Assembly (NCBI GenBank): GCA_021904315.1
Contig: CM038925.1
Coordinates: 12,278,501-12,342,500 of the forward strand
Reading direction: 5' to 3'
DNA from: Sphagnum magellanicum
Taxonomy: Eukaryota; Streptophyta; Sphagnopsida; Sphagnales; Sphagnaceae
Length of the DNA stretch: 64,000 nucleotides
This document shows positions 5,586-64,000 of the stretch, piece by piece. Every line of letters starts with the position of its first letter. The first letter of the stretch is position 1. Under the pieces are notes generated by a model, which saw only the letters and a list, made by a program, of their open reading frames with translations, was not told the origin of the DNA and did no database searches. The translations under genes were made by a program, and so were the position numbers.

Positions 5586-6067
5586 AAATCAATTGGTAAT
5601 TTAGCAACAACTATCAACTTTTGAGTACTTGTCATTTTCTTCACCTATATGCACATTGGATGATTGGACATGCACAAGTTTCATGTGCATGCTCACAAGT
5701 TGTCACAAAATTGTCATCATGCACATGCTTGTACCTTTTGGAATCTTATGTAATAGTTTAAAGTAGGTTCCAAAAGGTATAAGCATGGTTCCAAAATATA
5801 TCAAACATGGAAAACATTTGCACAACATGCAAAAGCCACATTGTATGTGATTCCATATAACACATTTCACTCATATAACACATAGATAAAAGATAGCCAT
5901 TTGAATGCTCACAAAAGAATCTCCTCTTCATGGAAGAGATAATTTACACAACATGCAAGTCACATTGTACGTGGATTCCAAATAACACTTTAATACTTTA
6001 ATTTTCAATCATATATCACACAGATAAAATATAACCATTTGAGTCCTTGCAAAAGAATCTCATCTGG

Positions 6068-6302
6068 ACCCCAGTGGTCATGATGGTTCATTGGTATAGC
6101 CAAGTATGGGATGTTGAGACCTCAAAAAAAGTTATGGTTTCAAACTTAGTGGTGTATAGGTGAAACTTTTCCTAGCCCTTTGCCAACGAATAGGTCATGG
6201 GTTCAAACCCATTAAAGTGTAGAGAAACTTTTGCAAGTCAATGAGCTTGACTTGAAGGTGCCAACAACATCTTGTTAGGTGTTGTGTTTCACAAAGAAAA
6301 AT
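6068..6302 (+). mobile_element. Second SINE-like element, possibly dimeric
   Basis: A box A-like TGGTTCATTGG (6,084-6,094) is followed by a degenerate box B (6,136-6,146). A second, perfect GGTTCAAACCC lies at 6,200-6,210. The tail region (AATGAGCTTGACTT, GGTGCCAA) matches the body of the SINE at 5,402, so this looks like a related or dimeric SINE. It is conserved at 32,748-32,982. Confidence 0.6.
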
Positions 6303-6761
6303 AATCTCACCTTTGTGTGTGTGTGTATGAAAACAACTTTTTGGTACTTAGTTTCAAGTTTGAAAATGGCATTTTTGTTTTGTTTTAAGGAATGTCAAAT
6401 TTTTAAATATTGTCATTGGATGTGTAACTTTTCATTACCACATATTATGAGAAATCATGTCCTTGCAATTTGTCCTATGCAACTAATTCTAGTTGTGAAC
6501 TATTTGCAAAGGACACAATTTTTTATAATGATAAACTTATGTATTTACATGCAAAACATACAAGAGATATCCATAAAGTGATATTTAGTTGTATGCTCCT
6601 TTTCATCCTCACTTGGCCATGTCATCCCCAATTTGAAAGTATATTTAAAATCCTTGGAACTACAACCCAAAGCTCAAAAGTAGGGATGAACTTTCCAAAT
6701 TTTTGAGCATAATTTATCTTTTTCTAAACTACACTTAGAAATTTTGTGCACATAAGGGGTT

Positions 6762-7090
6762 TAGCTACCTTGGTTAGCTAGGGACCTACCTAGGCTACCT
6801 ACATAGTGTACCTACCTAGCTACTAATCTACCTAGGCTACTTACCTATGTTAACCAATGTAGTGCACATACCCACCTACTTAAAATACCTACCTACCTAT
6901 TTTTCTACCTAGGTTGCCTATTCACCTACATCCCACTTATATGTGTTACCAAGGTCTATGAACCTACTTAACCTACCAACCCACCTACCTAATGTACCTA
7001 CCTACCTACTCAGGCTAGTTACCTAGCCACTTGCCTACTTTACTTAAGTGTCACTTAAACTACCTACTTACTTTGACTACCTACCTAGGT
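6762..7090 (+). repeat. CTAC/CCTA-rich low-complexity tract
   Basis: This is a degenerate array of ACCTACCT units broken by GGCTAC and AGCTA variants, with no regular longer period by eye. The matching tract in copy 2 is 33,445-33,800, with small unit gains and losses. A short version occurs in module A at 1,698-1,745. Confidence 0.75.
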
Positions 7091-9718
7091 TTCACACAAT
7101 GTGGGAGATATCAATCAAGGACAAAATTAGTATTATTTGGAGTTTATGAGGTTTTTCAAGTTTGGTCCCTTATCTTTTTGTAGTTCAAAAGTGACAATCC
7201 CAATTTTGGGTCTTGTCATCAATTGTGGCCTAACTTGTTGTGTAGGTTCCAATTAGTTAGAACCACTTTACAAATATAGATATGTAAAGATTAACAATAA
7301 GTTTCATACCACTAGCAATGTCCATGCCCAAATTTGGTACTATTTGCATGCAAACCTAAATTTACCTAAACATGTTTAATGTTTGTTTTTTTAAAATGGT
7401 TATAGATTGACATGGTGCACATAAATCACTTACTCTCTTAGTTGAGTAAATAATTGGTGTTAAAATTAAAGCTAGCTTCATAAATTTTTTTTTTCATTCA
7501 TCACAAATGTTATTAAACTTGAAATTTTATTAAGGTAAGAATCTACAAGCGAAAGAAAAGTAGAAAACAATAGTCAAAAGTCAATGCATAAAAAGAACTT
7601 ATGATATGTTATGAAGCATAAACTAGATTGAAAGAAAGATCCAATGGTTGAATTTGCACATGCATTGAATACTTATTTTCAATTTCTTCATACAATTGTG
7701 CCATCAAATCTATTTAAGTTCATAAATAGATATGTAAACCTCTCCATTCTTATTTTTTCAAGCCTCAAGCCATAATTCTTTTTAAATAATTTGTAAATTT
7801 TATTGCAAGTGGCTTGGTTACTATAATTTGGAGATGTATTGGAAGCCTAATCAACCTTCAATAAAAATTGATTTGGAATGCATATGTTAATTATGGCAAA
7901 CAAATACAACTTCATTGTAATTTTCATGTTATATGTTTTGAATTAGGTAGGGCTTTTGATTAATGGCTTAACTTTTGCATAAGGGTAAGTTATTTAGATT
8001 TTCAAAAAAAATTGGACATCAAACAATTTTTTTTTTTGGTGAAGGCAAAGGTAAATGCTTAATTAATTAATTTTCAATGAGAAGAATGTAAATATCATGA
8101 GCTATATGGTACAAGTTTTTCCAAAATGTTTTCACTTGTGTGTTCAAAAAAAGGAGAAAGAAAATCACGTGATCTTCACACATGTAGCTAATTTTGTAAT
8201 GTTTAAATTCATCTCCTACATACGGAATGACAACTTATTAAATTTTAACTACTTACACTAAGAACCACAATAACTTGATATAATAGAAGTTGAATACATT
8301 AAAAATTTGACCAAGATATGACATATTTTCCAAATAGGGATTAAAAAGGTGTAGGCAAGGTCAAATTATGCTTCAAGAGTCCTCACATCAATTGATTGGT
8401 TATTTCACGTGTAGGGATGAGGGTGCGTGGTGTAGGGGCACGGGTGTTGAATAGGGGTGTAAAGTTTACCATGCACCCCAAAAATTTCCCAATTTATCTT
8501 GATGTGGTTCCACATTTATGACACGTATGTTGACATGGTGATTACATGGTATCTATGTGGCACTTATGTGATCCCTATATGGTACTTATATGTGGAGCCT
8601 ATGTGACATTTTTTGTGCCATGGGGGAACACATGTGTTGCACATGGGAACCCATGTCCTAATTTTTCACCAACCCACATGAAAACTTTTCATATTAGAAA
8701 ACATGTTTCAATAAAGTTGGGAATTTAGTCCCAATAGTCCCAAATGGCACCAATGTGCATTCAAGAATGGGTGGGGAGCACACTTTCCCATGTTTGGCCA
8801 CATGTCATTTCATGCCAATGTGCATTCCCACAATGTGTTTGGGAACCCATCACGTCCCCACATGAGGACAATAGTCTTTACATGGGAAAGGTAGCTTGGT
8901 GGATCATCAATTATATCACACAATCCCTCACAATCCCCTAAAGGAAAATGTGTGAAGTGGTAGGAAGAGTTCATCTCAACTTGTATGTTCAAGTCAAACA
9001 AGTTAAATGTGTAGTATCTTGGATATAATGTCTTGAAAATCAAACTAAAGGTAATTTGCCCAATCAATGGCATCCAAGGATTGGCCTAAAGTGTGCTTCA
9101 TAATTATAGTTTGTTTAGGAGATATTTTAACCATAATGGAAATGATCGAAGCCCATTTTGTAAGGAATTAAAAGGGCACCTTGGTGGAATGGTTGAATGT
9201 GTCACACAATTCCTTGCAAGGAGATGTGTGCATTCCAATGATGTCTTAATGAAGAATTAACTTGAACCATTAACTATTTAATATATTGGAATTCTTACCT
9301 TGAAAATCAATTTGAAGGTTATTTGCTCGGTTGGAAGCATCCAAGGATTGGCCAAAATTGAGGTAGACCTTTTACTCTTTTCAAGATAGAATTCAATCCT
9401 CAACAATGGAAATGATTACGATCATTCATGAGGATGTGGGTTTAGAGTGTTCTGGAATGGTCAAGTCTTGCACACATGTATTTCCTTCCATTTGAGGGTA
9501 TGGGCAAGCTATAATATTCAAATGTGTCACAACAACACATCTTGGGTTTTACAACTCGTTAACAAAACAACTAGTCTTTTTATTATTACAATTGTAATTA
9601 CATAATCATGTTAATGACTGCTTGGTTGTAAAGGACATTGTGGTGCCACTTGGCATTATGGTTTTGCAACTATAATCAATATCGAGACTTGATAATTTTT
9701 GCACAAATATCAATATTG

Positions 9719-9721
<3 letters not shown>

Positions 9722-9761
<40 letters not shown>
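9722..9761. repeat. (TA)n microsatellite
   Basis: About 20 uninterrupted TA units. In copy 2 (about 36,450) the same site holds only a short, interrupted tract. Confidence 0.9.
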
Positions 9762-9765
<4 letters not shown>

Positions 9766-11440
9766 TTAATTGTCCAAAATTAGATAATAACAAAACTCTA
9801 TTGATTCTTACAACTATTGGGGAATAATAACAACTTATGATCTAGTGATGTTGATATGGCATGCCATGTGACAACAAGGTTGGCTAGTAGTTGCAACACC
9901 TCATGACTTATGACACTAACTTCAATGGATTTTCCTTTATTAATCGGTCATGTGATTAATGACAATTTACAATATCTTTTTTTTTGGATACATGTTATGT
10001 GGAAAAAGTTCATAAGGTGTGCTCATTAGATTTATATGCCAACTATTTTTATAGGTTTTGTTATTTCCCCCAACTAATGGATGCCAATCTAGGTCAACAA
10101 CACATTATGGGTTTTAAATTGGTCAAAAAAATGACTACTATTCTTTTCAACTATGATTGTAACTATTTTGTCACAAAAATACTATGTTGCAAAGGCCATT
10201 GAGATGTCATGTGATGTCATGGTTTTGTGATTATAATTAATTAATTGCAAGATCCATCTACCTTTGTGATTATTAATGACTCAATTTCCCATGATGATGA
10301 CATGGCATGCTATACGTTAACAAGATGATGTGGTCCTATTTGTCAACATTCTGATTCACGTTATTGATTTGATTAATTAATTTCATTTATTAGTTAATTT
10401 AAAATATTATTGTCCTTTGCAATTAATAACAATCCGGTCTTCCATGTGATGATGACATGGATACCATTTGGCAACAAGGCGTGAAAATTTTTCATGGCAA
10501 TCCATGATTTTTTGTGACACCATAAATTTTTGTGTGTCTTGAATTTATGACACCAATATTTGTCATGGCATGCCATAATGTTTTTGTGTGCCACGAGACT
10601 TTTGAAATCATGAATTCACATGCATGTGTATGTGTACTAAACAATTTATTGCTAACTTGTAATTATGACTACAATATTAATAGTCATTTTGAAAAAGGTG
10701 ACATTTAACTCCTTGACTTTTTAACTATTCAACACACTAGCTTAGGTTAACATACCTATTAATTTATTACATCTAGTATGTTTAAATATACTTAGAATAG
10801 GTTACCCTAGTAATAGGTTAACCTAGGTAGCTTGCATAGATTCCTAGCTTTAAGCATTTTGCCAAATCAACCTAAGTCACCTCATTACAAGATATTTTAT
10901 CAAGTTTGTAACCACTTCAAGTTTATGCAACTATAATGTGACTAGATGCAACTAGATGTGACATAATTATCCTAGGTTTTTTTAGCTTAAGAATGTTTAG
11001 GTTAACCTAAGCTAAGTCAAATTATACTATTGACAATGTAAAGACCAAATTCTAATATTATAGCTAACAAATTTGGACTTTAGCAATATCATTATATAAA
11101 AGCAAAACGATAATTTTAATATGTTATGAAATAATGGCATATCCCTAACGTATTTTAAATATATATTTAAGCATATTCTCAAAATGAATTTTTGACACCT
11201 TATTTACATTTAAATAAATTATAATTTGGGGGAAATCACAATCAAAGGAGCTAGGTGCACCAAGGCAAAAGTTCATTTCCAAAGATTGCACATGACATTG
11301 AAACACGTCATTTTTGTGTTGGTTTATAACTTTAAACTTTGTATTTTAGATACCCCATTTAACACTGCATTTTAGATATGAATACATTTTGATTAAAATT
11401 TGATTTTATGGCATCTATATTATGCATACATGCCTTCTAT

Positions 11441-11464
11441 CACACACACCCACACACACACACA
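11441..11464. repeat. (CA)n microsatellite
   Basis: A short CA run with one CC interruption. The matching site in copy 2 (about 38,250-38,272) is a clean CA run. Confidence 0.8.
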
Positions 11465-12737
11465 TGAACATTTTTTTGTTTAAGCCACATTTTCAAAATC
11501 CGTAATTTTAGGGTTAAAAACACTTTTGAACCAAATGTGCTTAAATGGGTTATAAAAAAAATTCATCAATTCAAATATTTTTTCCTTTCTAATCATCAAT
11601 GTTAAAATCATTTTTAATTTCAAAAGGAATGGTGTACATTTGGTAGAAAAAAAGGATGTTTGAAAAAAATAAGGATTGTCCACTTTCAAAATCAGAGTGT
11701 TTTGAACATGCAAAAACATTTTTAATTTTTGTCAAGTTTTGAACATGTAAAATTTTCAATTAATGAAAAAATTCCAAAAACCTATTATGACAATCTAAAC
11801 TAATATGCTTCCTTTGTGATTTTTCAAACATAAAAAATACAATTTTAAGGAATATCCATTCACTTAGGTGGCTCCTTTGACTATGATTTTATCGATTTTT
11901 ACTTTTTTTCAATAAGTTGAAGCCTTTTTTTTTTGCACATCATTTGTAATAAAATAGAAGTGTCCTCCTTGGGATGTATAAGTGCATCATCCATGTTTTA
12001 AATGCATGACATTCATGTGTAAAACCTATGAACCCATGAAAGAACAATTTTCACACAATTTCCATTACCAAATTGTGGGTTGAAATGTTTGCGATGTACC
12101 ATAAACATCACCTTGAAACACCTTGATTGATGCCACGAGGTCACACACAAAAACATCTTTCATTTGTGCAAACTTTACGAGAGCATGCACAAACTCCAAT
12201 AAAGGAGAAATGCAAGCAAGTTCAAATAAAACTTGGATGTCACATATGTTGTATTTATATGAAGCCTTTTCTAATATATTAATTTAACATCTAGATAAGT
12301 TTGAAAGGTAATTTAATAAATATGGAATATCTTTCAACACATTTTAAAGCCCGTAACTAGTGTTTTTCAACATAGTGAAATAGTGTAAAAGCATTGTTTA
12401 AGCACCATTGGTTAACAATGTCTCAAGAGTTTTTCATCCAAGCCCACGCTAGCACATCATCTTTTCAAGACTACTGACTCGAGACATTGCCTTTGGCTCC
12501 TATTTTCCTATTTTTAACCAAGTTATATTGTCCATAAATGGACATCACAATGGAGTTTTCCCAAATCAAATCATTGCAACTTGGTGGAAAACGTGTTAAA
12601 AAGGAATATGTTATCATAGATTGTTTTTTTTTAAAACCTTCACCAAGAAATTGATTGAATTTTTTTTTAAAATTTAAACATTTGCCAAAAATGGAGGCAT
12701 GTTTTAAATCTAGGTCAATCTTAAATTTAGGGCAAGT

Positions 12738-14832: not shown

Positions 14833-16730
14833 CTCAAGCAAGAGTTGCATAATCTACAGAAAAACAAGATGAACATCAGTACCTATTCTACAAAGGTGAA
14901 AAACCTTACAGATGCTTTTGCATCTATAGGAGCCCCTGTAGATGATGAAGATTTAGTGGCCGTCACCTTGAATGGACTTGGAAAAGACTATAGTCGGTTT
15001 CATACTTCAATTGTAGTTCGAGAAACATTTCTCGATTTCCAAGACTTAATAACACTACTTATAAGTGAAGAGATGAGAATTGTTGGTATTTCATCTAATG
15101 GAGGATCACAAGAAAGTGCTTTCTGTTCAAATACTAATAGAGGTAGAGGTAGAGGTGATAAAATTTCATTTCGAGGTCGACACAGAAGTTCGCATGGTGG
15201 ACATCATCAACATGAAGGTTAAGTTCATGGAGGTGAACGAGGAAACTTTGGAGGAACAGGAAGTTGAGGAAGTTGTGGAGGTCGTGGTGGAAGTCATCAA
15301 AGTCAACAATTAAATAGTGATTCAAATTGGTATTATTGCAGGAAACCTGGGCACATGGCGAAGAACTGTTATCAAAGGGAGCATGATGCACGAAATGGAA
15401 AGCTGCAACAAAGGAATTATGCTTTAACTAGCAATCAAGGTGATGACCAACTAATTCTGATGCAGCATGTGGAAAATTCATTGATAGGAGGTGTATCAGA
15501 CAACAATGTCTGGTATGTGGATTTTGGAGCTTCAAACCACATGACTAGTCATGGAGAATGGTTTAAAGACATAAAAGATTTGAAGACACCAGGGTTTGTG
15601 GAAATTGGTGATGACACTACACATCCCATCACAAAAATTGGCAAGGTGCCATTGTCCATGCAAGATGGGCAAACAAAGTACTTGAAAGATGTACTTCATG
15701 TTCCAACCATAACAAAAAATTTGGTCTCCATAGGCCAAATGGTGGAACAAGGTTTACAGGTGACATTCAACCCAAATGGATGTTTTGTGGAAGACATGAA
15801 GAACCAAGGCAAATTGATTGTAAAAGGGGAAAGGAATGGACGAATGCTCACCTTGGATGTGAACATGCTTGAGGTGAATTTCATGTTATCCACACATGGA
15901 AAAGGAGCTGGAGACATTGGAATTTGGCACAAACGGGTTGGCCATGTTAATCTCCAACATCTTAAGCTAATGGAAAAACAAAATATTGTTGGAAGCCTTC
16001 CCAAATTTGGAATAGAAGAGGTGATGTCAAAAGTTTATGAAGCATGCCAATTGGGGAAGCAAGCTAGGCATCCATTCCCAACACAAACAATTCATGTAAG
16101 TTCCAAACCTTTGGAAATGATCCACTCAGATGTGTGGACCACGAAGACAGAATCCATTGGAGGATGCAAGTACTATGTGAGTTTCATTGATGATCACACA
16201 AGGAAGGTGTGGGTCTACTTCATGAAACACAAAGGTGAAGTGTTTCAACATTTTTTGAATTTCAAAGCAATGGTGGAGAAGGAGAAGGGTGTGAGCATCA
16301 AGTGCCTAAGGTCCGATGGAAGGGGAAAATAATTTTTAAATGAATTCAATGAGTACTTAAAGGAACATGGAATTCAAAGGAAGTACTCATGTAGTTATTC
16401 CCCACAGCAGAATGGAGTTGCTGAAAGAAAAAACAAGCACGTTGCAAAAATATCACGTGCCATGTTGAATGAGAAGAATTTGTCAAATTATTTTTGGGCT
16501 GAAAGGGTAGCAACTGCAGTCTATATCATGAATTAAACACCCACAGCGGTAGTTCATGGCATGACACCTAAAGAAAAATTCACAGGCAAGAAACTAGATT
16601 TCTCACACCTTAAAGTGTTTGGTTACATTACATACGTGCATATTCCTGATGAGAAGAGATCAAAACTAGACCTAAAAGTTAAAAAATGTATCTTCATTGG
16701 ATATTCCTTAGAACAAAAAGGATATAGATG
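14833..16730 (+). pseudogene. Copia A polyprotein, gag to integrase (decayed)
   Basis: One reading frame (frame 1) runs the whole length without a shift but is broken by several stops (15,220-15,222, one near 15,265, 16,330-16,332 and one near 16,534). Visible in order are gag (SIGAPVDDEDLV near 14,920), a glycine/arginine-rich linker, a zinc knuckle at 15,328-15,369, a protease-like WYVDFGASNHMTS with the Asp-Gly/Ser-type active site at about 15,511, gag-pre-integrase WHKRVGHVNLQHL at about 15,925, and the integrase core (HSDVW, LRSDG, QQNGVAERKN). The first zinc-knuckle cysteine reads as tryptophan. The frame continues after each of two insertions. This copy cannot make a full polyprotein. 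Confidence 0.9.
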
Positions 16731-17331
16731 TTTGAGCCATACCGACACAACCATGTGCGATAGTCTCAATTTTTAAAAGTTGCATCAGGGTTATTTGAAT
16801 GGGGTAAGGTTATTAGGGGCTTTTATCAACTTCATAGGGAATGATGGATGCGCTAGGTGCATGGAGGGGTTGTTTTCTTTTATGAAAGGCGTTATTGGTG
16901 AATAAAGTGTTGGGTTAGTTCTTTTCTTCAATAAAAAGTCGGTAACCATAGTTTTAGAAACTATGTTGTGTAATTAGGGGTGAGAAATCTCTAGAGGGTT
17001 GGGGGTAGAAATAGACACCAGAATTTGCGATGTTTAGCACAACATTGGTCTTGTTATAGTATTTAATGAATAGTAAGGATGTTAGAAATTCTTGAAGCAG
17101 TTGAAGGGATGTTAATGAAGGGTTTAATAGAGTTAAAACAATTTTCAAGCCGTTGAACATAAGGTTAATTCGTGACAACTCAACAATTAAATAGATAGTA
17201 TAATAGTGTGCCAATGGTAACAGGAGTCTCATAATAACTAAAACATTTATTTAGTTGGTGAATGAGCTCAACAAGGAGCTGCAAGTACATGTGAAATCTT
17301 GGGCTATGCCATAGTGATAATTCATAACTGC

Positions 17332-17743
17332 AAGAAATCTAAGATGCGTCAGACGGTGCAAACTAAATAGTCTGCCTTGCTATTAGGAGGCAGTCGACGA
17401 ATCGGACCATGCAACCAATGATAGTGTCTAATGCCGGGAACTAAAAACCATGCGAAGATAGAAATATTTTTAGTTTTGTAACAACCTACACAAATGGTCG
17501 TAGGTTCGTCACCAGAAGTGGGGTCGACTTGCAGCAAAATCACCAGGGTGCGAGAGTTCGGAAAAATACGATAGTACCAGGCTCGAAGGGGTTCAGCTTC
17601 AAGACGAGCACGCACTTCTCGAGGTTCGGGTTCTTCATCACGAAAATGTTGTGTTAGGGTAAGATCTAGAGATGATTCGGAGGCGATTCTTCATTCACTT
17701 GTGCGGTTTGGGGCCCGTAAGATGTGACCATGCGTGATGCCAT
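17332..17743 (-). pseudogene. Broken copy of the X-family small protein
   Basis: This is homologous to the ORF at 21,243-21,656. Shared residues include LDL near the N-terminus, a W-x-VPG motif, HYHWLHGP (HYRWLRGP in the other copy), LP, YL-x-x-T and the C-terminal RILDFLQL. An ATG at 17,743 opens a stretch that goes out of frame near 17,685 (at least one indel). The main frame then runs to a TGA at 17,349-17,351, where the other copy has arginine, consistent with CGA to TGA. The tail RILDFLQL and a stop follow at 17,332. LDLTL near 17,655 fits the LxLxL pattern of plant EAR repression motifs, but such short matches occur by chance. I do not recognise the family. Confidence 0.7.
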
Positions 17744-17990
17744 AATTTCAAGAAAAGGAAAAAGGTCAGATCTTCAATCAAAATCAAATCGATAATGAAG
17801 GTGTGAAAGACTTGTTACATTGAATTGCATAGTCATAATTTATAGATCGAAGTAAAGGAAAGAAAGGCGTGAGTAATGACTTAGAACCATGGTGCAATAA
17901 AATCGTAAGGTCAAAGGAAAAAATTGAAGGTTTAAGTAAAGTTTGTTGGGGGGAAAATGGGAAGAGGTGAGAAGGTGTTTTTCCTTCACC

Positions 17991-18146
17991 TTCCATTGGC
18001 CACCAAGCTTGGAACATTCCATTTGCCACCAAGCATGGAACCTTCCATTGGCCGCCAAACTTGGAACATTCCATTGGCCACCAAACATGGAACCTTCCAT
18101 TAGCCACCAAGTTTAGAACATTCCATTAGCCACCAAGCTTTGGATC
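17991..18146. repeat. 26-bp minisatellite, six units
   Basis: Six head-to-tail units of the form TTCCATTGGCCACCAAGC plus TTGGAACA follow each other without gaps. Alternate units end in ACA or ACC and carry CTTGG or CATGG, so the array is really three 52-bp dimers. It lies between the MITE and the small ORF of element X1. Confidence 0.9.
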
Positions 18147-18219
18147 TACCTTCACATCCCTTCTCCTTCTTTTTAAAAGGCGGATTCGGATCATTAGTTC
18201 TTTCTCTTTGCCTCGGAGA

Positions 18220-18371
18220 CACTATTAAAATTTTTGTTTTTTACAACTTGTCTTATGCAATTAAAAAATATCACATGCAACTATTTTGGAGTTGCATGCA
18301 ACATGTGCAGTTGCATGTGACATTTTTTAGTTGCATAAGACAAGTTGCAAAAGACAAAATTTCTAGTAGTG
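18220..18371. mobile_element. CACTA-type MITE inside element X1
   Basis: The 152-bp element has long terminal inverted repeats. The left arm starts CACTATTAAAATTTTTG and the right arm, reverse-complemented, starts CACTACTAGAAATTTTG. The arms stay complementary for about 60 bp through AACTTGTCTTATGCAA. The internal GTTGCATGTGACATT motif is shared with the 2.3-kb element at 56,217. Flanking trinucleotides are AGA and AAA, so the target duplication is imperfect. Confidence 0.75.
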
Positions 18372-18549
18372 AAATAATTTTCATTCAATCTTGAATACTT
18401 GTTCCGACAAGCTTCTTGAAGAGGAAAATAATGATTAGTCTTAGTAAAAGGGAGAAGGAAGGAAAGTATAATGAAAATCTTGTAATAGTTTTGAAGGAAT
18501 GGGGGTGGGTAGTGATAATGTTGGAAGGTTGGAACTTTAGAGAAATCTC

Positions 18550-18916
18550 ACAAACCCTCTCAAGTTTCATAGCATAACTTCTTGCTGGTTCAACTGCAGA
18601 GCTTGAAATTTGGTAACAAGTTATGCCTTGTAGTTAGCTTTCTAACGAACAAAGGCAAAGCTGGATTTGAATAATGTATGTGTTAGAATGATGTTTTAAG
18701 TGACTGATGGTCTCCAACCAAGTTGAATTATCACCTTTGTAAAACCCTCTCGGGTTTTATAACATAACTTCTTGCTGGTTTAGCTGTAGAGCTTAGTATT
18801 TGGTAGCAAGATGCGCCTTGTTGTTAGCTTTCTAATGAGCTATGGCAAGCCAGATTTGAATAACTTTTGTGTTAGAAATAATATTTCAAGTGACTAGTGG
18901 TCTGCAGCTATGTTGG
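18550..18916 (-). repeat. Tandem duplication, about 180-bp unit, two copies
   Basis: The units start near 18,553 and 18,742. They share AAACCCTCTC, CATAACTTCTTGCTGGTT, GTTAGCTTTCTAA, ATTTGAATAA and AAGTGACT at about 80% identity by eye. In element sense the pair begins about 265 bp from the 5' end of X1. Confidence 0.8.
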
Positions 18917-19188
18917 ACATGGTGTTGAGTCCTTAAACATTGGTTTAAATGAATGACAATTTGACATAAAGTCTTAGAATGTGTAGTGTGTGAGCTTGAA
19001 AAAATATATCTATCAGTTCCAATCGTAAATGATGTGTAGGAGGCAGGCTACTTAATTTCAACTACAAACGCAATCTAACATCTAGAATTACACTTGCATT
19101 TTTTCCTTCACCAATAGCATTTGTGCTTTCAAGCGTAGTCACCTTGTAGAATTGGGAGTAGAGGGATGGAAATTCACCTCACAAGATG

Positions 19189-19519
19189 CTTCAATCCTTC
19201 CATTCGGAAGTTGCAAGTGAGTAAAGATGTTGTGTTTAATGAGATGGTTAGCTAGTACTCACCATTGAATGTAACAAAAGATGGAAAGGCTAGAAATGGT
19301 GATGTTTCATCAAATGTGGAACAAGAATCACAATTAATCACTGCACCACAAGAATCTTCAATTAGTGGGTCCAATACCACTCCATGGAGAGGAATATTAA
19401 GATCTTCAAACATTGTACATGGTAGTTCTCAAACATCATTTAGAAATCCTCATGTAGATGATGAATCAAATGATTCAGATAAGAATGTGGGTGAAAAATC
19501 AAGAATCCCTTCAGTTACT
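19189..19519 (+). pseudogene. Copia A linker between integrase and reverse transcriptase
   Basis: This 331-bp island lies between the two insertions. It continues the Copia polyprotein with NPSIRKLQVSKDVVFNE, the conserved stretch after integrase, then a TAG where tryptophan is expected (about 19,251), then a serine/asparagine-rich linker (SSNVEQESQ, TTPWRGILRSS). The frame joins across both insertions once one target duplication is discounted on each side, which fixes the insert boundaries to the base. Confidence 0.85.
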
Positions 19520-19779
19520 TGTGAGGATTTCTTGCACACTTCCATCACTAAGATATGCATTCACAAAAAACCCGGTTAGAAGTGAAACTACTATGTAGTT
19601 GAAGTCTAACGAGTTAGGTGGTTTGAGGTAAGTAATGAAATTTACTAAAAATTTAATGCGTTGTGTCCAAATCTCATGATTTTATTTTTATTTTATTTTA
19701 TTTTATTTATGTCTTTGACCAAAAGTTAAGCCCGAAACTAAAAACCACTTGTTTAGATTGAGGGAAAAAACAACAACTC

Positions 19780-20340
19780 AACCTCCTCTACTTTCACAAA
19801 TGTAACTCCCTCACAGCAAAACCGATGACGCTGAATTTTTGGGAGAAGCTTCTACACATTTCAATCTAAAACTAATCTAATTTTGAGACAAATCCAACGG
19901 TGGATTTGAAAGAAACAATTAATTAAACCAAAAGTCCAGAGGCTTCCCCATGGAAATCATTCCATGAAACCCACTTCAACACCCTCTACTTTCAACAACT
20001 GTAACTCCCTCACAACAAAACCGATGACGCTGAATTTTTGGGAGGAGCTTTTACACCTTCTGAACTAACACTGATCTAATTTTGACACAAATCCAACGGT
20101 AGATTTGAGAAAACAATTAATTAAACCAAAAGTCCAGAGGCTTCCCCATGGAAATCATTCCATGAAACCCACTTCAACACCCTCTACTTTCAACAACTGT
20201 AACTCCCTCACAGCAAAACCGATGACGCTGAATTTTTTGGAGGAGCTTTTACACCTTCTGAACTAACACTGATCTAATTTTGACGCAAATCCAACGGTGG
20301 ATTTGAGAGAAACAATTAATTAAACCAAAGTTCAGAGGCT
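19780..20340 (+). repeat. Tandem repeat, three 198-bp units
   Basis: The phrase GTAACTCCCTCACA starts at 19,802, 20,001 and 20,199. Each unit also carries AACCGATGACGCTGAATTT, AATCCAACGGTGGATTTGA and AACAATTAATTAAACCAAA. Units 2 and 3 are nearly identical and unit 1 is more diverged. It sits about 265 bp from the 5' end of X2, the same place as the 180-bp repeats in X1. Confidence 0.9.
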
Positions 20341-21224
20341 TCACTACGATTACTTGCTACACATAACTCCATTCCATATTTCATTTTTTCATAACCTTTG
20401 CATGAACACTTCCACACACAAGAACTAACAACCTTTTCACACTTCATTCTCCTCTTCCCTCTCCCTTCTTTCATACACACAATGTTTTTTTTTCTTGGTA
20501 CGCCTCCATGACTTTCCTTGAGCTTGTTCCCCTTGTCCAATGAAAGCTTGAAATTCTTTTGCACCAATCAATGGCCTCCTCATCCTTCAAGGGCCAATGA
20601 GAATTTGAGAATGAATGGCCATCCAATTGAAATTAGGATGAGAATCCTTGGGCCCAATGAAACATAAGAAATATTCCATCCTCTAATAAAAAAGGATGAC
20701 AATCCTCATGACTAATGGGATTAGAGGATCTAACCTCCCCTTTATCTTGGATATCTTGATGAGGTCTCTTGAGCTTAATCCTTTTCCATCCGTTGATCCT
20801 CACATCCTACTTCTTCATCCTAATTACTTCAAGTAACTAATTACTAGGATAAATTATCGGTAGTAACAAGGAAGAGTCCTTGAGTTCTTACTTGACTAAT
20901 TCAATAGTTGAAGTAACAATTTCGTGTAACATTCACTCTTTGATATTCCCTACCTATTTACTTTACTATGCACTAATTAACTATGTAGTACATAGTAAAT
21001 TGGAATTACAATTTGCATCACAAAAAAACTCTCACATACTTCTATATCCACCGTTGAATTTAAGGTTTGATGAATCTTTTAGATCTAGGGTGTTCGAGTT
21101 TTGATGAGGTTCCGCCGTCGCTCCCACACCTTACGCCTACCTTAATTTGTTAAATAAAAAGGCTTCGACCCCTTTTGAACGCAAATACCACCTTGTTGAA
21201 CTACCTTCTTGGTTTTTTTTGTTG
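20341..21224 (+). other. Non-coding interior of element X2
   Basis: No coding frame is recognised. The G+C content rises towards the ORF. If X2 is an LTR, promoter elements would be expected here, but I see no convincing TATA box tied to a start. Confidence 0.4.
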
Positions 21225-21242
21225 ATGCAAGCGCAACTAGTC

Positions 21243-21656
21243 ATGGCGGACGATGACGCTACGCCTTCAAATCTTCCAGTCGCATTCGTACAACAAGAAG
21301 AGCTTAAAGAAGCACCGCTCGACTTGAATGTTTTTCAACGGTCGTGCGAAGAAGAATCGCCCAGGAGAGTGGTGCGCACTCGAGTCGCTCGTTCGGTATG
21401 GGATCGTCAATTGTCTCCTAACCCGCGTGCTTTAGCAATTTATTTAAAGTTTGTTCCTGCTCATGGAGCCGCGCTAGAAAGGTTTGAAGAATGCCAGTGT
21501 GAAAATGATGATGTCCGTCTCCATTGTCGAACATGGGTTCCCGGTGATGGCCATTATCGTTGGCTACGAGGCCCGTTCAACCCACTTCCCCTGGAGCATC
21601 GAACCGAGTACCTCGCTCGCACCATTCGCCGCATTCTAGATTTTTTACAATTGTGA
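21243..21656 (+). CDS. Unrecognised 137-aa protein embedded in element X2
   Basis: The ATG at 21,243 is in a good plant context (GTCATGGCG). An in-frame ATG at 21,225 would add six residues. The product is charged and soluble-looking, with no signal peptide or membrane segment. Residues 1-40 are acidic and include LDLNV (26-30). Residues 40-60 are arginine-rich. WVPG (98-101), HYRWLRGP (104-111) and the tail RILDFLQL (130-137) are shared with the broken copy at 17,332. The frame is open throughout, and its bases look more G+C-rich than the flanks. I do not recognise the family. It lies in sense with X2, about 500 bp from its 3' end, and may be a captured host gene or an accessory protein of the element. 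Confidence 0.55.
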   Translation: MADDDATPSNLPVAFVQQEELKEAPLDLNVFQRSCEEESPRRVVRTRVARSVWDRQLSPNPRALAIYLKFVPAHGAALERFEECQCENDDVRLHCRTWVPGDGHYRWLRGPFNPLPLEHRTEYLARTIRRILDFLQL

Positions 21657-22162
21657 TCTATCCTTTAAGTCAATTATTCAGTTGTAATTCACTTGAGGCT
21701 ACTCAGGCGGAAATGTTTAATACTTAAGTTTGAATTGATTCTATTTAGAAGTCTGATAGAAGTGAAACTAAATAAAGATGTACTAAGACTACATCCTAAA
21801 AATCGTACAAGTACATCATTAGTGCTACAGACTAACTTAACCTTGTCATGGCGAAATGCTATTGTTAATTATGGGCTTGTATTTCTTACATATCAAGAAA
21901 TCACATCTAATTCTACATTCCCTTTCCTTTCTCTTCAACATAAAAGGGATAATGTACTCTAAAAGGTTTACTAAGTGCTTAACTGATTAAGCGTTACATC
22001 AACTGAAATAAAAAAGTACTATATGCCTGGAAATATCACAAAGGCTGATTCAACTATTAATAATCACTACTTGGAGGCTTATAAGCATTCAAATCATTAA
22101 TACTAAAGAAAATTACGGAACTAAGGCTTAACTAATTGTTGAGCTATAATCCATGGCTCACA
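21657..22162 (+). other. 3' portion of element X2
   Basis: About 500 bp follow the ORF up to the terminal CTCACA. There are scattered short open frames with no family resemblance. AAATAAAGATG near 21,770 could serve as a polyadenylation signal. Confidence 0.35.
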
Positions 22163-23871
22163 TTACTACTCCTGGAGCTTGGATGGCCAAGAAAATTTTG
22201 AAAACACCTGACAACAACAATGGAGTACAAAAATCCACACAAGTCAAGTACTCTATACAAATACTCACATATGATGGCTTTATAGCTCTTCATTACGCAT
22301 ACATGGTGAGAGTTATACAGGAGGTTGAACCCACTTGTTTTGAACAAGCGGTTAGAAACCCTAAATGGGACAATGCCATGGATGAAGAGATGGCAACTTT
22401 GGATGCTAATGCTACTTGGGAATTGGTAGTTTTACCAGAGGACAAAAAAGCAATTGGGTGCAAATGGGTGTACAAAGTCAAACATAATGCAAATGGATCT
22501 GTGAACAGATACAAAGCAAGATTGGTTGCCAAAGGTTATGCCCAAACTTATGGCATAGACTATGAGGAGACCTATAGTCCAATTGCCAAAATGACAACTA
22601 TAAGAATAATCATTGTTATGGTAGTAGCAAAAGGATGGTTTTTACATCAAATGGATGTAAATAATGCTTTTCTTCATGGAGATTTACATGAAGAAATGTA
22701 CATGGAGCAACCACCAGGTTATGTGGACCAAACACATCCTAATTTGGTTTATAGGTTGAAGAAAGCTTTGTACAACTTGAAGCAAGCACCTAGAGCTTGG
22801 TCAAACAAGATAGGTCAGTATCTTGTCATAAGTGGATTTTAAACATCCAATGTAGATTTTTCACTATATGTGAAAAAGACAGATCATGGGATTATAATCA
22901 TAGTCATCTATGTTGATGACTTGATTATCACAAGAGATAGTGATGCAGACATCTCTGATTTGAAGAAAACTTTTAAAGCAAAAGTTTGAAATGAAAGATT
23001 TGGGAGAGTTACATTACTTCCTCGGCATTGAGGTAATCCAATCCCCTAAACGGATATGGTTACTACAAAGGCAATATGCCTTGAACAAATTGATCGAATA
23101 TGGGATGACAGGTTGCAAACCCATTTCAATTCCATTGGAGCAAAATGCGAAGTTAAGTGCAGATGAAGGAGACCTTGTGGAAGATACCATTATGTATAGA
23201 TGCATAATGGGGAGTTTGATTTACATGACCATCACAGGGCCAGATTTGAATTATGCAATTGGAGTGGTGAGTCAATTCATGCAAACACCACGAAAGCCAC
23301 ATTTGGATGCAATGAAGCGCATACTGAGGTACATAAAACATACATTACAGTGTGGAATTTTTTATGAAGCCAATAGCCAGTTATAAGTACATGGATACAC
23401 AGATGCTAATTAGTCTAACAATGTTTCAAATAGAGGATCGACCAATGGTTTCATGTTTTCTTTTGGAAGTGGTGCTATTAATTGGAGTAATAAGAAACAA
23501 CCAACAATTCCACTATCAAGCATGGAGGTAGAATACAAAGGTGCAACAATTATTGCATGTAAAGTAATTTGGTTACAAAAACTACTATCACATTTGGGAT
23601 AGTCAGTGGATGCTCTTGTTATCATTTATTGTGATAACATTAGTAGCATACTACTTGCTAACAACCCAATCTATCATGCTAGGACAAAGCACATTGAGGT
23701 GCACTACCACTTTATTAGAGAAAAAATTATAACAAAAGAAATTGACCTCATTCATGTCAATATTGAAAATCAAGTTGCTAACATTTTCACAAAGGCTCTA
23801 GGTACAAACAAGCTAAGGAAGTTTAGAAAAATGCTTGGTGTACTAGAAGTGGATTTGAACTTGAGGGGGAG
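22163..23871 (+). pseudogene. Copia A reverse transcriptase and RNase H (decayed)
   Basis: The linker resumes with TTPGAWMAKK. The reverse transcriptase follows: WKWVYKVK-type core near 22,465, RLVAKGYAQ, a QMDVNNAFLHGDL block near 22,650, and an intact YVDD catalytic box at 22,909-22,920. A stop lies at 22,840 and a frameshift near 22,985; the second frame continues with DLGELHYFLGIEV. The RNase H part shows YTDAN at about 23,398 followed by a TAG in place of tryptophan, SSMEVEY, IYCDN and TKHIEVHYHF. The piece ends in a purine-rich tract just before the 3' LTR. Catalytic residues survive but the frame does not. Confidence 0.9.
23861..23871 (+). other. Polypurine tract of Copia A
   Basis: TTGAGGGGGAG lies directly before the 3' LTR start TGTTGAG, the usual site for plus-strand priming. 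Confidence 0.75.
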
Positions 23872-28414: not shown

Positions 28415-30587
28415 TCAAGTAAATTGTGGAGCTAAATACAAGTGTTGAGGAAGTCGAGGAATAGCAATTGCATGTAATGGAATTGCTTTTCGAGTTGTAA
28501 GTGCACACACTTCTCCCATATCCATGTCTTGTGGATTCTCTCCTTTTGGCAACTTCCATGTGAAACTATGAAGAAGCCTAGCTAGTTGCATTTGCACAGT
28601 AAGCAAACCCAACAACATACCAGGGCATATGCGTCTCCCGGAACCAAATGGTAAGAGTTCAAAATGGTTCCCTTTCAAATCAACATTAGTATGCAAAAAT
28701 CTATCTGGGTTGAATTCCAAAGGATTTTCATAAGCAGATGAATGTCGATGAATAGCCCATACATTCACAAATATTTGTGTATTAGGCAATATATGGTAAC
28801 CTCCTATTTCACATGCTTCCATGTTTTGATGTGGTATCATAAGTGTAGCAGGAGGATGAAGACGAAATGTCTCTTTCACAAAGGCTTGGAAATACTTTAA
28901 TTGAGGAATGTCACTTTCATCAATAACACGATCTTGCCCGATCACATCATCTAATTCATCTTGAACTTTTTTCATAAACTTTGGATGTTTCAATAGCTCT
29001 GCCAATGCCCATTCAATAGTAGTTATAGATGTGTCAGTGCCTCCTTCAAAAATCTCCTGCACATAGTGGCACATGGCGATTGTAATTATGCATAATAAAA
29101 TCATTAATAAATTGTTAGATCTTGAATAAAAACATTTATTCTACATATAGGCCAATATTGTTGAGATTTTATGACATGGTGAAAAGTGCAACATTGATCA
29201 TTTGATTGTTCATGATGAAATATCATAATCAAATAACTATAATGGTTGGCACAATAATTGAACAATATCAAATTTTTAACAATTTTTACTTCACCTAGCA
29301 AGTATAATCACAAACTTGATAACATTTTATGTCATGTTGAGGCCTTTAGCTAAAAAATTAAAAATGGAAATTGAAAGTTAGAATTAAGCACGAAATAACT
29401 CACATTGATAACAGCTTTGATGACATTGTCTCCATGTGCTTTACCAAAACCATAACTTTCAACAAAAGAAAACATGACATCAAGAAAATACTTGGAACGA
29501 TTTGGTTTTTTTTTCCTTGAATGATTCTGAATGATTTTGTCAAAAAATTGATCCATTTTCAACCTTATGTTATTTAGTTGAGGTATAATGCCTTGGAGAT
29601 CAAATGGCTTTAGAAGTGGAACAAAATCACTAATGTTGAAAACACCAAGGATTTTAATTTCCTCATAAATGATGTCATTGAACTCCTCACATTCTTTAAT
29701 GGAAAGTCCTGAGCCTAAATATCTTTTTCCAAATAGTAAACGAGTCATCACATTGAGGGAAGCATTACGTGATCTTGTGTAAATGTCCATTGGTTTTTCT
29801 TCCTGCAAAAAACATGTGAATCCATATCATCAATTTTCAACTAAATATATTGAAATGAAAAAAACAATAACATCAATTGCAAAACAAAGGCACAATCACT
29901 GAATGAAGAGGTGGTTGATATAATCATATTCCAAGAATGATGCAATGAATTTAGTGATACAAGTATGAAAACCTTCATGGGTTGTCCAAAACTCAATGAA
30001 CAACCTTTCTTAATTACATTTGGAAATTGGGTTTTTATTCAAATAAATTCAATTACCTTGCAATCTTGAAAATAATCATGTATTAATGATGAAATTTCTT
30101 CATCTCGAACATTTTTGGAAGCATGAAGACTTTTGGCATTTAAAAGTTCCGATGCATGTATCATGCGCAGTCGTCGCCAATAATCCCCTTGAGATGAAAA
30201 TGCCATAGTAAGTCCACCATAACTAATGGATTGTGAAATGATAGTTTTGGGACGAAATGCCAAAAGATGATCATGTGTTTTCAAAACTTGTTCTGCCATT
30301 TGGGGAGACGAAATGATTACAACATGAACTGATCCCAACTTCAACTCCATGATATCCCCGTATGTTTTTGATAACTTATACAGATCTTGGTGGGGGATTT
30401 TACCTAAAAGAGGAATGTTTCCAAACAATGGCCATATGGGAAATGGCCCTGGTGGTCTTTTCAATTGTGGGTGACAAAACCATTGGACAAAGATGTGAAA
30501 GACTATTATGGAAACTATTGTAAGTATCAATGTTGTCAAATCAACTAATGTGATAAATTGACCCCATTTCACAACAACATTTGCCAT
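28415..30587 (-). CDS. Cytochrome P450 monooxygenase, plant A-type (CYP71 clan)
   Basis: Three exons: 30,587-30,057; 29,802-29,404; 29,056-28,415. The GT-AG introns of 254 and 347 bp are both in phase 0, giving 523 aa. Visible parts are an N-terminal membrane anchor (about residues 11-37), the PPGPFP hinge (45-50), the I-helix GGTDTS (315-320), the K-helix ETFR (372-375), FNPDRF (425-430) and the haem loop FGSGRRICPG with the ligand Cys454 (codon 28,625-28,627). The family inserts one oxygen atom into small molecules at the ER membrane using an NADPH-P450 reductase. The second intron lies just before the I-helix, where A-type P450s commonly carry one; the first is an extra intron. The start at 30,587 (MANVVVK) puts the anchor at the N-terminus; upstream in-frame ATGs exist. 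Substrate and subfamily are unknown. Nothing in it is broken. Confidence 0.92.
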
Positions 30588-30727
30588 GGTGTGCTTAGTT
30601 AATTTCACAACTAAATTGTAGTCAACTATGTTTTTTCCTATCATAACATGGGTATGCATGTGAAATACAAATAAAAGAAAGCCCAACTATGATCTTCAAA
30701 TGTGGTATGTTTGAGATTGTGAAGGGA

Positions 30728-30734
30728 TATTTAT
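30728..30734 (-). promoter_or_regulatory. Candidate TATA box of the P450
   Basis: TATTTAT on the plus strand reads ATAAATA on the minus strand, about 140 bp before the chosen ATG. This would leave a 5' leader of roughly 110 nt. AT-rich surroundings make the match weak. Confidence 0.3.
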
Positions 30735-31085
30735 TGTGATAGCAATGGTGTGGGAAAAGATGGAGGATGCAAATTGGGCCTCACAATTCCTTGCGTGGAT
30801 TGCTTGGTAAAGTAGTAATTGGGTGGTAGGTATAATGATGGTTCCTATATTAAAAGTGAGCATTGAAATGGTAGGGTCAAGTTGGTTGTTGGATGTGTCA
30901 AGAAATTGAAATGGAATTATTCTTTCAATAATAGGCAAATAGATGAAAATGCATAAAAACTTTTGGGTGAATCATGGTCGCATGACTCAAATTTGGAACA
31001 CAATGTTGTTTTTCGACTTTGGACCCATTATGTTTAAATATCTCCTATCAACAAATATGGCGTTTCCCAACTTTGCAATATTATG
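30735..31085. other. Upstream region of the P450 up to repeat copy 2
   Basis: About 350 bp of unique-looking AT-rich sequence. The large repeat begins only about 500 bp from the P450 start, so part of the gene's upstream control could lie in or next to repeat DNA. Confidence 0.5.
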
Positions 31086-32102
31086 AAATTCCACAATATT
31101 AAAATATTCATTCGAAACATGAAAACATATAAATTCCCATATTGTTGGCACACTCAACGTGTTTAACAACAAATTGTGAACCTCGAACTTGCACCATATA
31201 GACATGATGAAAGGTCTAAATTTTAGAGGAATTTCAAAGAATCAAATCCTCATGTAATAATTTAAACTAGGTTCCAAAAAAATCAAGCATATCTAAGACA
31301 TGTGCACAATGTGATTTGTACTTGATCCACGTAAGATTCTTGACTTGTACAACACCTAGATAACTTATGGCCATTTGAATCCTCAAAAAAAGAATCTTGC
31401 CTTCTTTTTGTGTGTAATAGACCATGTTTTGGTATTTAATTTCAAAATGGTTCACATTGCAATTTTGTTGTAATGAATGTCAAAAATAAAAACATGGGCA
31501 TTTTTTTCAATATGTGTAGCTTTTAATTACCATACACTTTTGCACTTACATGAAAACATGTTATATATATCCATAAAGTGGTGCCCAATGCTATGCCCCT
31601 TTTCATCTCACTTGGCCCTTTTGTCCCCACTTTGCAAGTATCCTCAAAATCCCTTAATTTAGACCCAAACCTTCGAAGTAAGGATGAAAATTTCAAAATT
31701 ATGACCATGGTTTATTTTTCTAAATTGCACCTATAAACTTTGTGCCTACCTACCTACTAGGCTACCTATAAAATATACTTGCCCACCTACCTAGGGGCAA
31801 GAGAATTCAACCAAATTTGCCTCTAAACAAGATAAAAGTAAAATAACTAAACTTGGATGTGATAAATATTTGTGCAGGGTCTCTTAGTTACTGAGCACCG
31901 TCGTCACAAAAGCAAATAATATAATGCTTGTTTCCTATATATGATTAAATCCATGTTTGCAAGAACACAATTATATTAAACCTTGAAAGAGACATGATTT
32001 GAATATTTTGCTAAATTTATATGGAGAAAAGATCTTTCTTTTTTTGAATTGCTAAAGTTGCCTCCATTTAGTTGCCCATGAAAACATGGTACATATATTA
32101 TG

Positions 32103-32280
32103 TTGACCCTAGGGGTGATGGCTCGTAGGTCTAGCATTTTAGGACCTCAAAACAAGTCATGGGTTCAAACCCAATGGAATGTAGGTGAAACCTTTGTTAG
32201 CATTTTGCCAATGAGCTTGACTTGGGGGTGCCAATGGCTTGTCAAGTTGGGTTTGTTATTATGTTTCTCCCCAAAAAAAA
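32103..32280 (+). mobile_element. tRNA-derived SINE, copy 2
   Basis: Counterpart of 5,402-5,585. Box A reads TGGCTCGTAGG and box B GGTTCAAACCC, with a shorter A-tail interrupted at 32,272-32,282. It is a shared insertion, not an independent one. Confidence 0.7.
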
Positions 32281-32747
32281 TGAAATCAATTGGTAGTTGA
32301 ACAACAACTATCAACTTTTGAGTACTTGCCATTTTCTTCACCTATATGCACATTGGATGATTGGACATGCACAAGTTTCATGTGCATCATCACAAGTTGT
32401 CACAAAATTGTCATCATGCACATGCTTGTACCTTTTGGAATCTTATGTAATAGTTCAAAGTAGGTTCCAAAAGCTATAAGCATGGTTCCAAAAGATATCA
32501 AACATGGAAAACATTTGCACAACATGCAAAAGCCACATTGTACGTGATTCCATATAACACATAGATAAAAGATAGCCATTTGAATGCTCACAAAAGAATC
32601 TCATCTTGATGGAAGAGATAATTTGCACAACATGCAAGTCACATTGTACGTGGATTCCATATAACACTTTAATACTTTAATTTTCAGTCATATATCACAC
32701 AAATAAGATATAACCATTTGAGTCCTTGCAAAAGAATCTCGTCTTGA

Positions 32748-32982
32748 CCCCAATGGTCATGATGGTTCATTGGTATAGCCAAGTATGGGATGTTGAGACC
32801 TCAAAAAAAGTTATGGTTTCAAACCTAGTGGTGTATAGGTGAAACTTTTGCTAGCCCTTTGCCAATGAGTAGGTCATGGGTTCAAACCCATTAAAGTGTA
32901 GAGAAACTTTTGCAAGTCAATGAGCTTGACTTGAAGGTGCCAACAACATCTTGTTAGGTGTTGTGTTTCACAAAGAAAAATA
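32748..32982 (+). mobile_element. Second SINE-like element, copy 2
   Basis: Counterpart of 6,068-6,302 with the same doubled box B arrangement; the downstream one is again GGTTCAAACCC. Confidence 0.6.
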
Positions 32983-33444
32983 CTCTCACCTTTGTGTGTG
33001 TGTGTATGAAAACAACTTTTTGGTACTTACTTTCAAGTTTGAAAACGGCATTTTTGTTTTGTTTTAAGGAATGTCAAATTTTTCCAACCATGTGGAAATT
33101 GGATGTGTAACTTTTCATTACCACACATTATGAGAAATCATGTCCTTGCAATTTGTCCTATGCAATTAATTCTAGTTGTGAACTATTTGCAAAGGACACA
33201 ATTTTTTATAATGATAAACTTATGCATTTACATGCAAAACATACAAGAGATATCCATAAAGTGATGTTTAGTTCTATGTTCCTTTTCATCCTCACTTGGC
33301 CATATCATCCCCAATTTGAAAGTATATTTTAAATCCTTGGAACTACAACCCAAAGCTCAAAAATAGGGATGAACTTTCCAAATTTTTAAACATAATTTAA
33401 AAACCAAAACTTTTTCTAAACTACACTTAGAAATTTTGTGCCTA

Positions 33445-63822: not shown

Positions 63823-64000
63823 TGTGAGGATTTCTTGCACACTTCCACCACTAAAATATGCACTCACAAAAAACCCGGTTAGAAGTGGAACTACTATGTA
63901 GTTGAAGTCTAACGAGTTAGGTGGTTTGAGGTAAGTAATGAAATTTACTAAAAATCTAATGCGTTGTGTCCAAATCTCATGATTTTATTTTTATTTTATT
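63823..64000 (+). mobile_element. Element X3: 5' end of a third X element, cut by the window edge
   Basis: From TGTGAGGATTTCTTGC onward the 178 bp match 19,520-19,697 at about 96% by eye, including AAAAACCCGGTTAGAAG and ATGCGTTGTGTCCAAATC. It is in the same orientation as X2. The rest lies beyond the window, so it could be a solo copy or the 5' LTR of a complete retrotransposon. Confidence 0.85.

Follow-up and report, generated by a model that had tools for sequence, protein, structure and literature searches.

Results

Two insertions in a copia-like coding region

The window considered here is a stretch of 64,000 nucleotides from Sphagnum magellanicum (GenBank assembly GCA_021904315.1, contig CM038925.1, positions 12,278,501 to 12,342,500), and the subject of this report is a pair of insertions within it, X1 and X2, each carrying one copy of a small protein gene and each interpreted as a solo long terminal repeat (LTR). 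X1 spans positions 16731..19183 (2453 bp) and lies on the plus strand in the sense of retroelement gag-pol, with its gene on the minus strand. It is flanked by the target site duplication AGATG at 16726..16730 and 19184..19188. X2 spans 19520..22162 (2643 bp) in the reverse arrangement, minus in the gag-pol sense with its gene on plus, and is flanked by TTACT at 19515..19519 and 22163..22167. Both have TG...CA ends, with one end base off in X1, and in each the inverted match between the two ends covers 6 bases. The window's inverted-repeat listing shows no longer terminal inverted repeat, a hallmark of class II DNA transposons, for either insertion.

Ends and duplications of this kind are not significant when taken alone. 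Resampling of the window as a dinucleotide chain gave a mean of 1.19 end-plus-duplication candidates per sequence and at least two candidates in 30 of 100 resampled windows. A third candidate in the window, at 30494-32592, was taken as chance. X1 and X2, which interrupt a Ty1/copia-like coding region with an exact 5-bp duplication each, are nevertheless confirmed as complete insertions, because three further observations bear on them. Deletion of each insert together with one copy of its duplication yields a single copia frame that crosses both junctions; its one stop falls in the flank between X1 and X2. The start of a third copy of X2 type, X3, occurs at 63823..64000 on the minus strand (gag-pol sense); it begins at the first base of X2 and is 97% identical over 178 bp before the window end cuts it. 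Finally, the small proteins of X1 and X2 are homologous. The matching ends and exact duplications proposed in a preliminary description of this DNA are therefore borne out by the coordinates and the restored frame.

A small gene with its own signals in each insertion

The X2 gene is an intact open reading frame (ORF) of 143 amino acids at 21225..21656 on the plus strand, with a second ATG at 21243. The X1 gene, recognized by protein match to the X2 copy, lies at about 17322..17743 on the minus strand and contains one in-frame stop and one frameshift. Within the window the two proteins match at 35-37% identity (E 1e-15), with an alignment score of 165 compared with 61 for the best of 2000 shuffles. 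The earlier proposal that the insertions lie in opposite orientation and carry copies of one gene holds. At the DNA level, X1 and X2 share a single significant match, of 126 bp at 60% within the small gene; beyond the gene they have hardly more in common than TGTGAGG and ATGGCTCA at the ends.

Each gene is bracketed by promoter-like and terminator-like signals. In X1, a TATAAA box (17839..17844, minus) lies 101 bp upstream of the ATG and an AATAAA (17246..17251, minus) 73 bp downstream of the stop. In X2, the TATA-like TTAAATA (21150..21156, plus) lies 93 bp upstream of the second ATG and an AATAAA (21771..21776, plus) 117 bp downstream of the stop. Among 31 copies of the gene, a TATA-like box was present at -73 to -101 in 29 (exceptions L003 and L038) and an AATAAA-like signal 73-123 bp past the stop in 29 (exceptions L013 and L034), the latter at an offset that depends on type (73 bp in the X1 type and 117 bp in the X2 type). 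The two signals were found in 21/21 and 20/21 copies of the X2 family and in 5/6 and 6/6 copies of the X1 family, respectively. The four diverged relatives were mixed, with both signals in L035 and L037, the TATA-like box only in L034 and the AATAAA-like signal only in L038. Clustering of CCAAT was not used as a shared signal, being notable in X2 (5 in 170 bp, equalled in 4/500 shuffles) but not in X1 (178/500 shuffles).

Copies across the genome

Genome searches were made in the 439-Mb assembly that contains the window. The X1 and X2 tails gave 539 and 389 first-look candidates, respectively, and 40 were scored for each; by eye, no same-orientation pair lay within 20 kb among the 40 scored places per tail. 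The X2 family was sampled as the 20 best-scoring of 39 scored copies besides X2 itself, which, with a second copy inside L027 and X2, makes 22 copies. All 20 sampled copies and the second L027 copy align end to end, although L019 lacks an internal stretch. All 20 stand alone, and the target duplication is exact in 13, the other seven having one mismatch or a mutated end when the flanks were read. L027 itself comprises two X2-type solo LTRs, inverted to one another and ∼0.7 kb apart.

The small gene was present in all 22 X2-family copies. Its frame is open in 10 (137 or 143 amino acids, X2 included) and carries breaks or stops in 12, so that the presence of the ORF, which the preliminary description had proposed to check, is constant while its integrity is not. 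A protein search of the genome returned 1024 first-look candidates, of which the best 150, at 70-100% identity, were scored; this set over-represents X2-like and intact copies, and X1-type copies (∼35% identical) are not among it. By eye, 39 of the 150 are free of stops, two of these being a frameshifted pair on C17 described below. Same-strand neighbors within 22 kb numbered four among the 150 when sorted by eye. One is a shown LTR pair; two others, on C13, join unlike copies, and the last, on C17, spans 21.6 kb.

A paired element with gag-pol

The exact 16-base X2 end occurs at 67 places in the genome and forms two same-strand pairs within 25 kb. In one, the exact ends are 10.9 kb apart and belong to an element at C17:15893524-15907077 with an X2-type LTR at each end and 8.3 kb between them. 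A single target duplication, ATAGC, surrounds the whole element, and none surrounds either LTR alone. The LTRs are 99.4% identical over aligned columns, compared with at most 96.5% between other copies. The interior matches Pfam families for gag, reverse transcriptase, RNase H and integrase on the strand opposite the small gene, in broken frames; PF03732, PF19259, PF00078, PF17919, PF17917 and PF17921 were above the cut-off and rve was below it. A second, archaeal-type RNase H marks the Retand/Ogre (Tat) lineage, and none was detected by Pfam in the seven interior pieces scanned, whose frames are broken. The other same-strand pair of X2 type (G000 C17:11345841 / 11367439, minus) is 21.6 kb apart and may represent a full-length element that has itself received an insertion.

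The right interior end abuts an X2-like LTR in five of the six loci that reach the junction, the C17 element included, with L036 as the exception. Interior ends are rare, with the right end at seven places and the left end at 13 places in the genome, and almost every copy is a solo LTR. Given that the C17 pair flanks gag-pol within one outer 5-bp duplication, comparison of sequences establishes the X2 family as LTRs. The proposal of 2.4-2.6-kb solo LTRs with a gene inside is upheld, and paired copies around a primer site and gag-pol, for which it suggested a search, exist in the C17 element. With a paired gag-pol copy and the ORF in 22/22 copies, the family consists neither of single copies beside a transposase gene nor mostly of copies lacking the ORF.

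Primer site and orientation of the gene

At all eight loci covering the left junction, TCACA is followed by three bases and TGGTGYG. The spacer is TTT in seven loci and TGT in L043, and an X2-like LTR adjoins the junction in seven of the eight, L041 providing short pieces only. The three bases lead into TGGTGCGTCTGCCGGGAG, a primer site that pairs with the tRNA-Gly(tcc) 3' end with CCA added. The pattern TCACANNNTGGTGCGTYTGCCGGGAG occurs at six places in the genome, compared with none for a reversed-pattern control. Two of these are among the eight left-junction loci, and the other four adjoin LTR ends of X1 type, with 74-88% identity across 270-289 bp. Exact copies of the matching 3' half of the tRNA occur at seven places (none in the control), one of which was read and identified as tRNA-Gly(tcc) by ARAGORN. 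A first exact tRNA-Gly pattern had given no match in the assembly; the tRNA gene later read differs by one base in the 5' acceptor strand. The pattern R10 + TGTGAGGATTTCTTGC likewise occurs at 0 places, a result that bears on the primer-site side and is silent on the polypurine tract. To judge from this complementarity, minus-strand priming is by tRNA-Gly(UCC).

Both the gag-pol strand and the position of the primer site run opposite to the small gene, which is therefore antisense to the element. The gene had been described as lying in the element's own sense, 500-600 bp from the 3' end. The distance stands (506 bp from stop to nearer LTR end in X2 and about 590 bp in X1), but neither the sense nor the end does: the X2 gene occupies positions ∼506-938 from the first base of the LTR in element sense, in the first half, on the side of the unique 3' (U3) region, and in the C17 element both LTRs contain the gene. 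A sense gene in the R/U5 portion was accordingly dropped as a candidate arrangement. At the level of sequence, antisense orientation and the identity of X1-type ends as LTR ends, the latter by way of the primer site, are regarded as established, as are the primer site itself, the presence of the gene in the copies read and the conservation of its putative signals.

Selection on the gene

Codon positions 1, 2 and 3 agree between X1 and X2 in 53, 63 and 33% of cases, compared with a composition expectation of 26, 25 and 27%. The proportion of nonsynonymous differences (pN) is 0.39 and that of synonymous differences (pS) is 0.85, at which synonymous change is saturated. In ten comparisons between families, which share sequences and so are not independent, pN/pS was 0.42-0.55 with upper 95% limits of 0.56-0.90. 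Within the X2 family, shared alleles comprise 35 synonymous and 59 nonsynonymous changes, compared with 18 and 71 among singletons (Fisher p 0.014). There are no indels in the ORF across the 22 X2-family copies, compared with 10 distinct indels in the 506-bp tail (Poisson 2e-4). These patterns demonstrate past purifying selection between families on the predicted coding sequence. The proposed test of dN/dS on the ORF thus gave a positive answer between families, although not within them, where the limits include 1 (see "Discussion").

The 3' junction and internal purine tracts

Just before the 3' LTR, several relatives among L033-L038 keep a non-purine sequence of CCCCAGTAGGTCGCCACA type. This right junction resembles a tRNA 3' end. 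A tRNA-primed plus strand is not claimed, as the assembly yielded no exact match to a tRNA gene having this acceptor and T-stem; this negative is weak because the first exact tRNA-Gly pattern also missed a gene that is present.

By sequence scan, a purine tract lies inside each LTR in the gag-pol sense, of 21 nucleotides in X1 (18446..18466, plus) and 26 nucleotides in X2 (20447..20472, minus). It begins 1716 bp from the LTR start in X1, a distance that includes a 150-bp insert resembling a miniature inverted-repeat transposable element (MITE), and ∼1690 bp from the start in X2. A tract of 18-22 nucleotides is present in the X1 copies L003, L004, L006 and L008. Near the X2 place, a tract was seen in L042, L044, L045 and L047 but not in L040, L041, L043 or L046. 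A purine run of at least 24, taken to be this tract, occurs in about 10 of the 21 other X2 copies, in which varying repeat numbers blur its position. The internal tract may tentatively be regarded as a former polypurine tract; an ordinary pyrimidine-rich stretch in the promoter of the antisense gene is equally possible.

Other features of the insertions and the window

Tandem repeats were listed in both insertions, with units of 26 bp (17988..18140) and 190 bp (18552..18903) in X1 and of 198 bp (19778..20342) in X2, the last differing in copy number among family members. The MITE-like insertion in X1 is a 150-bp inverted repeat at 18220-18371, with ends that we take to be CACTA-like. When five further copies of X1 (L003, L004, L006, L007 and L008) are aligned, it is skipped, and it has a relative at 56216-56330 in the window. 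Elsewhere, a 7.4-kb stretch occurs twice in the same orientation, at 5202-12622 and 31901-39432, with 94% identity between the copies, and by eye the ORF pieces at 28415-30686 (minus) resemble a plant cytochrome P450 gene with introns.

Discussion

The reading that best accommodates these data, to which we assign a probability of roughly 80%, is that X1 and X2 derive, as solo LTRs, from two related families in one tRNA-Gly(UCC)-primed Ty3/gypsy lineage, in which LTRs of 2.4-2.6 kb hold a complete antisense gene of ∼140 codons with a predicted trans-acting product. The fixed place of the gene in X1- and X2-type LTRs and the selection between families support its membership of the element lineage, as judged by sequence. 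The antisense unit is predicted to be transcribed and translated, and by analogy with antisense accessory genes elsewhere we infer that its product would be an accessory factor acting in trans, most likely on LTR transcription or silencing. According to the proposed mechanism, every new insertion would receive, in each of its LTRs, a copy of a U3-side antisense accessory gene that has a promoter and terminator of its own. When the two LTRs later recombine, gag-pol would be lost and one whole gene left, so that the gene would outlive the interior. Solo LTRs would constitute a standing supply of the protein, should it benefit the lineage in trans.

Several observations weigh against this reading. 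Within families, pN/pS is near neutral, at 0.73 (limits 0.34-2.06) for X2-L014 and 0.67 (limits 0.37-1.49) for X1-L006, and the three codon positions are nearly alike within the X2 family (0.91, 0.93 and 0.92). Such near-neutral change is as expected of dead copies. In the C17 pair the gene is frameshifted in both LTRs, and so this insertion did not need its own gene copy; the idea that the gene is part of the element's life cycle is retained as regards lineage membership, and a need for the gene would be no more than possible. The two C17 LTRs differ by ∼3% over X2 positions 1-258 and are identical over 831-2137, an unevenness that suggests gene conversion. The C17 primer site mismatches the tRNA at 2 of 18 bases, the paired element is of X2 type only, and X1-type identity is based on four LTR ends that adjoin the primer site. 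In the six loci read at the 3' LTR, most of them decayed, no polypurine tract was seen before it; the sequence there is of CCCCAGTAGGTCGCCACA type and not purine-rich. With regard to the protein, Pfam returned no match at E up to 10, the Protein Data Bank (PDB) gave weak matches only (one at E 0.19 and five at E 1-1.3) and none at E up to 1 with a 10-sequence profile, and an AlphaFold model from two sequences had a mean predicted local distance difference test score of 35.5, too poor for a fold search. No relatives were found in IMG/VR or in GTDB genomes or plasmids, a search that did not extend to phages. The N-terminal LDL(N/T) stretch presumably resembles the repression motifs of plants known as EAR.

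Among the alternatives, the one that survives best is that the selected product is mainly an antisense RNA, silencing or self-limiting, with the coding signal a relic of a former protein function. The unit is indeed antisense to the element and has its own promoter-like signals, and roles for antisense RNA in plant elements are discussed in the part of PMC7264820 consulted here, but selection acts on codons, and we consider this account improbable. Slightly less probable again is that the gene is a passenger, either a captured host gene or an old ORF, copied with the LTR while its protein goes unselected. Near-neutral change within families and the movement of the paired C17 copy despite its frameshifted gene are what a passenger would predict; it would not, however, explain why third codon positions of X1 and X2 agree at near chance (33%) and second positions at 63%, why pN/pS is below 1 in all ten between-family comparisons or why the ORF is free of indels in 22 copies. 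A separate single-gene transposon with TG...CA ends, moved by the integrase of another element, would fit the 20 of 20 sampled X2 copies that stand alone with a duplication (13 exact, seven with a mismatch or mutated end) and the single shown LTR pair among the best 150 gene copies, but it is very improbable, being refuted in its general form by the one duplication that encloses the C17 pair with its gag and pol (a chance match of two insertions would arise about once in 1024), and being at odds with the occurrence at other loci of the primer site immediately next to X1- and X2-type ends and with the joining of the interior right end to an X2-like LTR in five of six loci.

Antisense accessory ORFs are familiar from the interiors of plant Ty3 elements. 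In the available excerpt of PMC7264820, additional ORFs of plant elements are assigned to the interior, in most cases to the region from pol to the 3' LTR, and the additional gene of Grande is reported to have its own promoter. The portion of PMC11963269 consulted describes antisense coding regions between pol and the 3' LTR in all cases of recent Retand elements, with tandem repeats in that region in about half. The X1/X2 gene resembles maize Grande gene23 and the ORFs of rice RIRE2 and Retand (TRP28) in being an extra gene found throughout its family, located towards the 3' end of a plant Ty3 element and on the strand opposite to gag-pol. It differs in lying wholly inside both LTRs, whereas those ORFs are situated between pol and the 3' LTR, from which it can be deduced that an ORF of their type is present once per element and absent from a solo LTR. 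The small protein also differs from that of Retand in having no match to TRP28 (PF04195) at a Pfam E of up to 10.

Genes that use LTR DNA are described in other settings. An antisense gene located within U3-R of the LTR is reported for human immunodeficiency virus type 1 (HIV-1) in the excerpt seen of PMC1654176. HIV-1 is a retrovirus of people, and the likeness, an antisense protein gene using LTR DNA, is one of arrangement alone. In human T-cell leukemia virus type 1, the antisense gene HBZ is mostly outside the LTR. The sag superantigen gene of mouse mammary tumor virus, an animal retrovirus, is inside the U3 of the 3' LTR in sense orientation; compared by description only, it is alike in being a protein gene in LTR U3, while the X1/X2 gene is antisense. 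To our knowledge, Cassandra carries a 5S-derived promoter sequence and no protein gene in its LTR. Cassandra, a terminal-repeat retrotransposon in miniature, is described in an excerpt of PMC10853983 as containing 5S rRNA sequence, a transcription unit, inside plant LTRs. The gene in the section of PMC1560396 consulted is within a retrotransposon and outside the LTR. No report of a protein gene contained entirely within a plant LTR was found in the literature searched, whose coverage leaves out most subscription journals. Therefore, antisense accessory ORFs in plant Ty3 interiors are known, and the placement wholly inside the LTR appears to be new.

How the gene came to lie there can be addressed only tentatively. 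One possible, although doubtful, account is that the antisense gene formerly lay between pol and the 3' LTR and was swallowed by the LTR when the start of the plus strand shifted to a new, non-purine site. The tract of 20-26 nucleotides would then be the old polypurine tract, every solo LTR would be a self-contained expression unit, and the genome would hold hundreds of dispersed copies of a selfish trans-acting factor well after gag-pol has almost disappeared. Given that no purine tract is found at the 3' LTR, plus-strand priming of this lineage becomes a testable question.

Solo LTRs are usually viewed as dead regulatory scraps. Here, recombination between LTRs removes gag-pol yet keeps a whole conserved gene, and because recombination leaves the gene, its copies (1024 first-look candidates) far outnumber the interiors (seven and 13 places). 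The lineage may thus provide a natural experiment on antisense ORFs in plant Ty3 elements, which are unexplained, and would offer a clean test of whether plant retrotransposon accessory genes act in trans. It also carries a warning that annotation may mistake LTR-borne genes for families of host genes.

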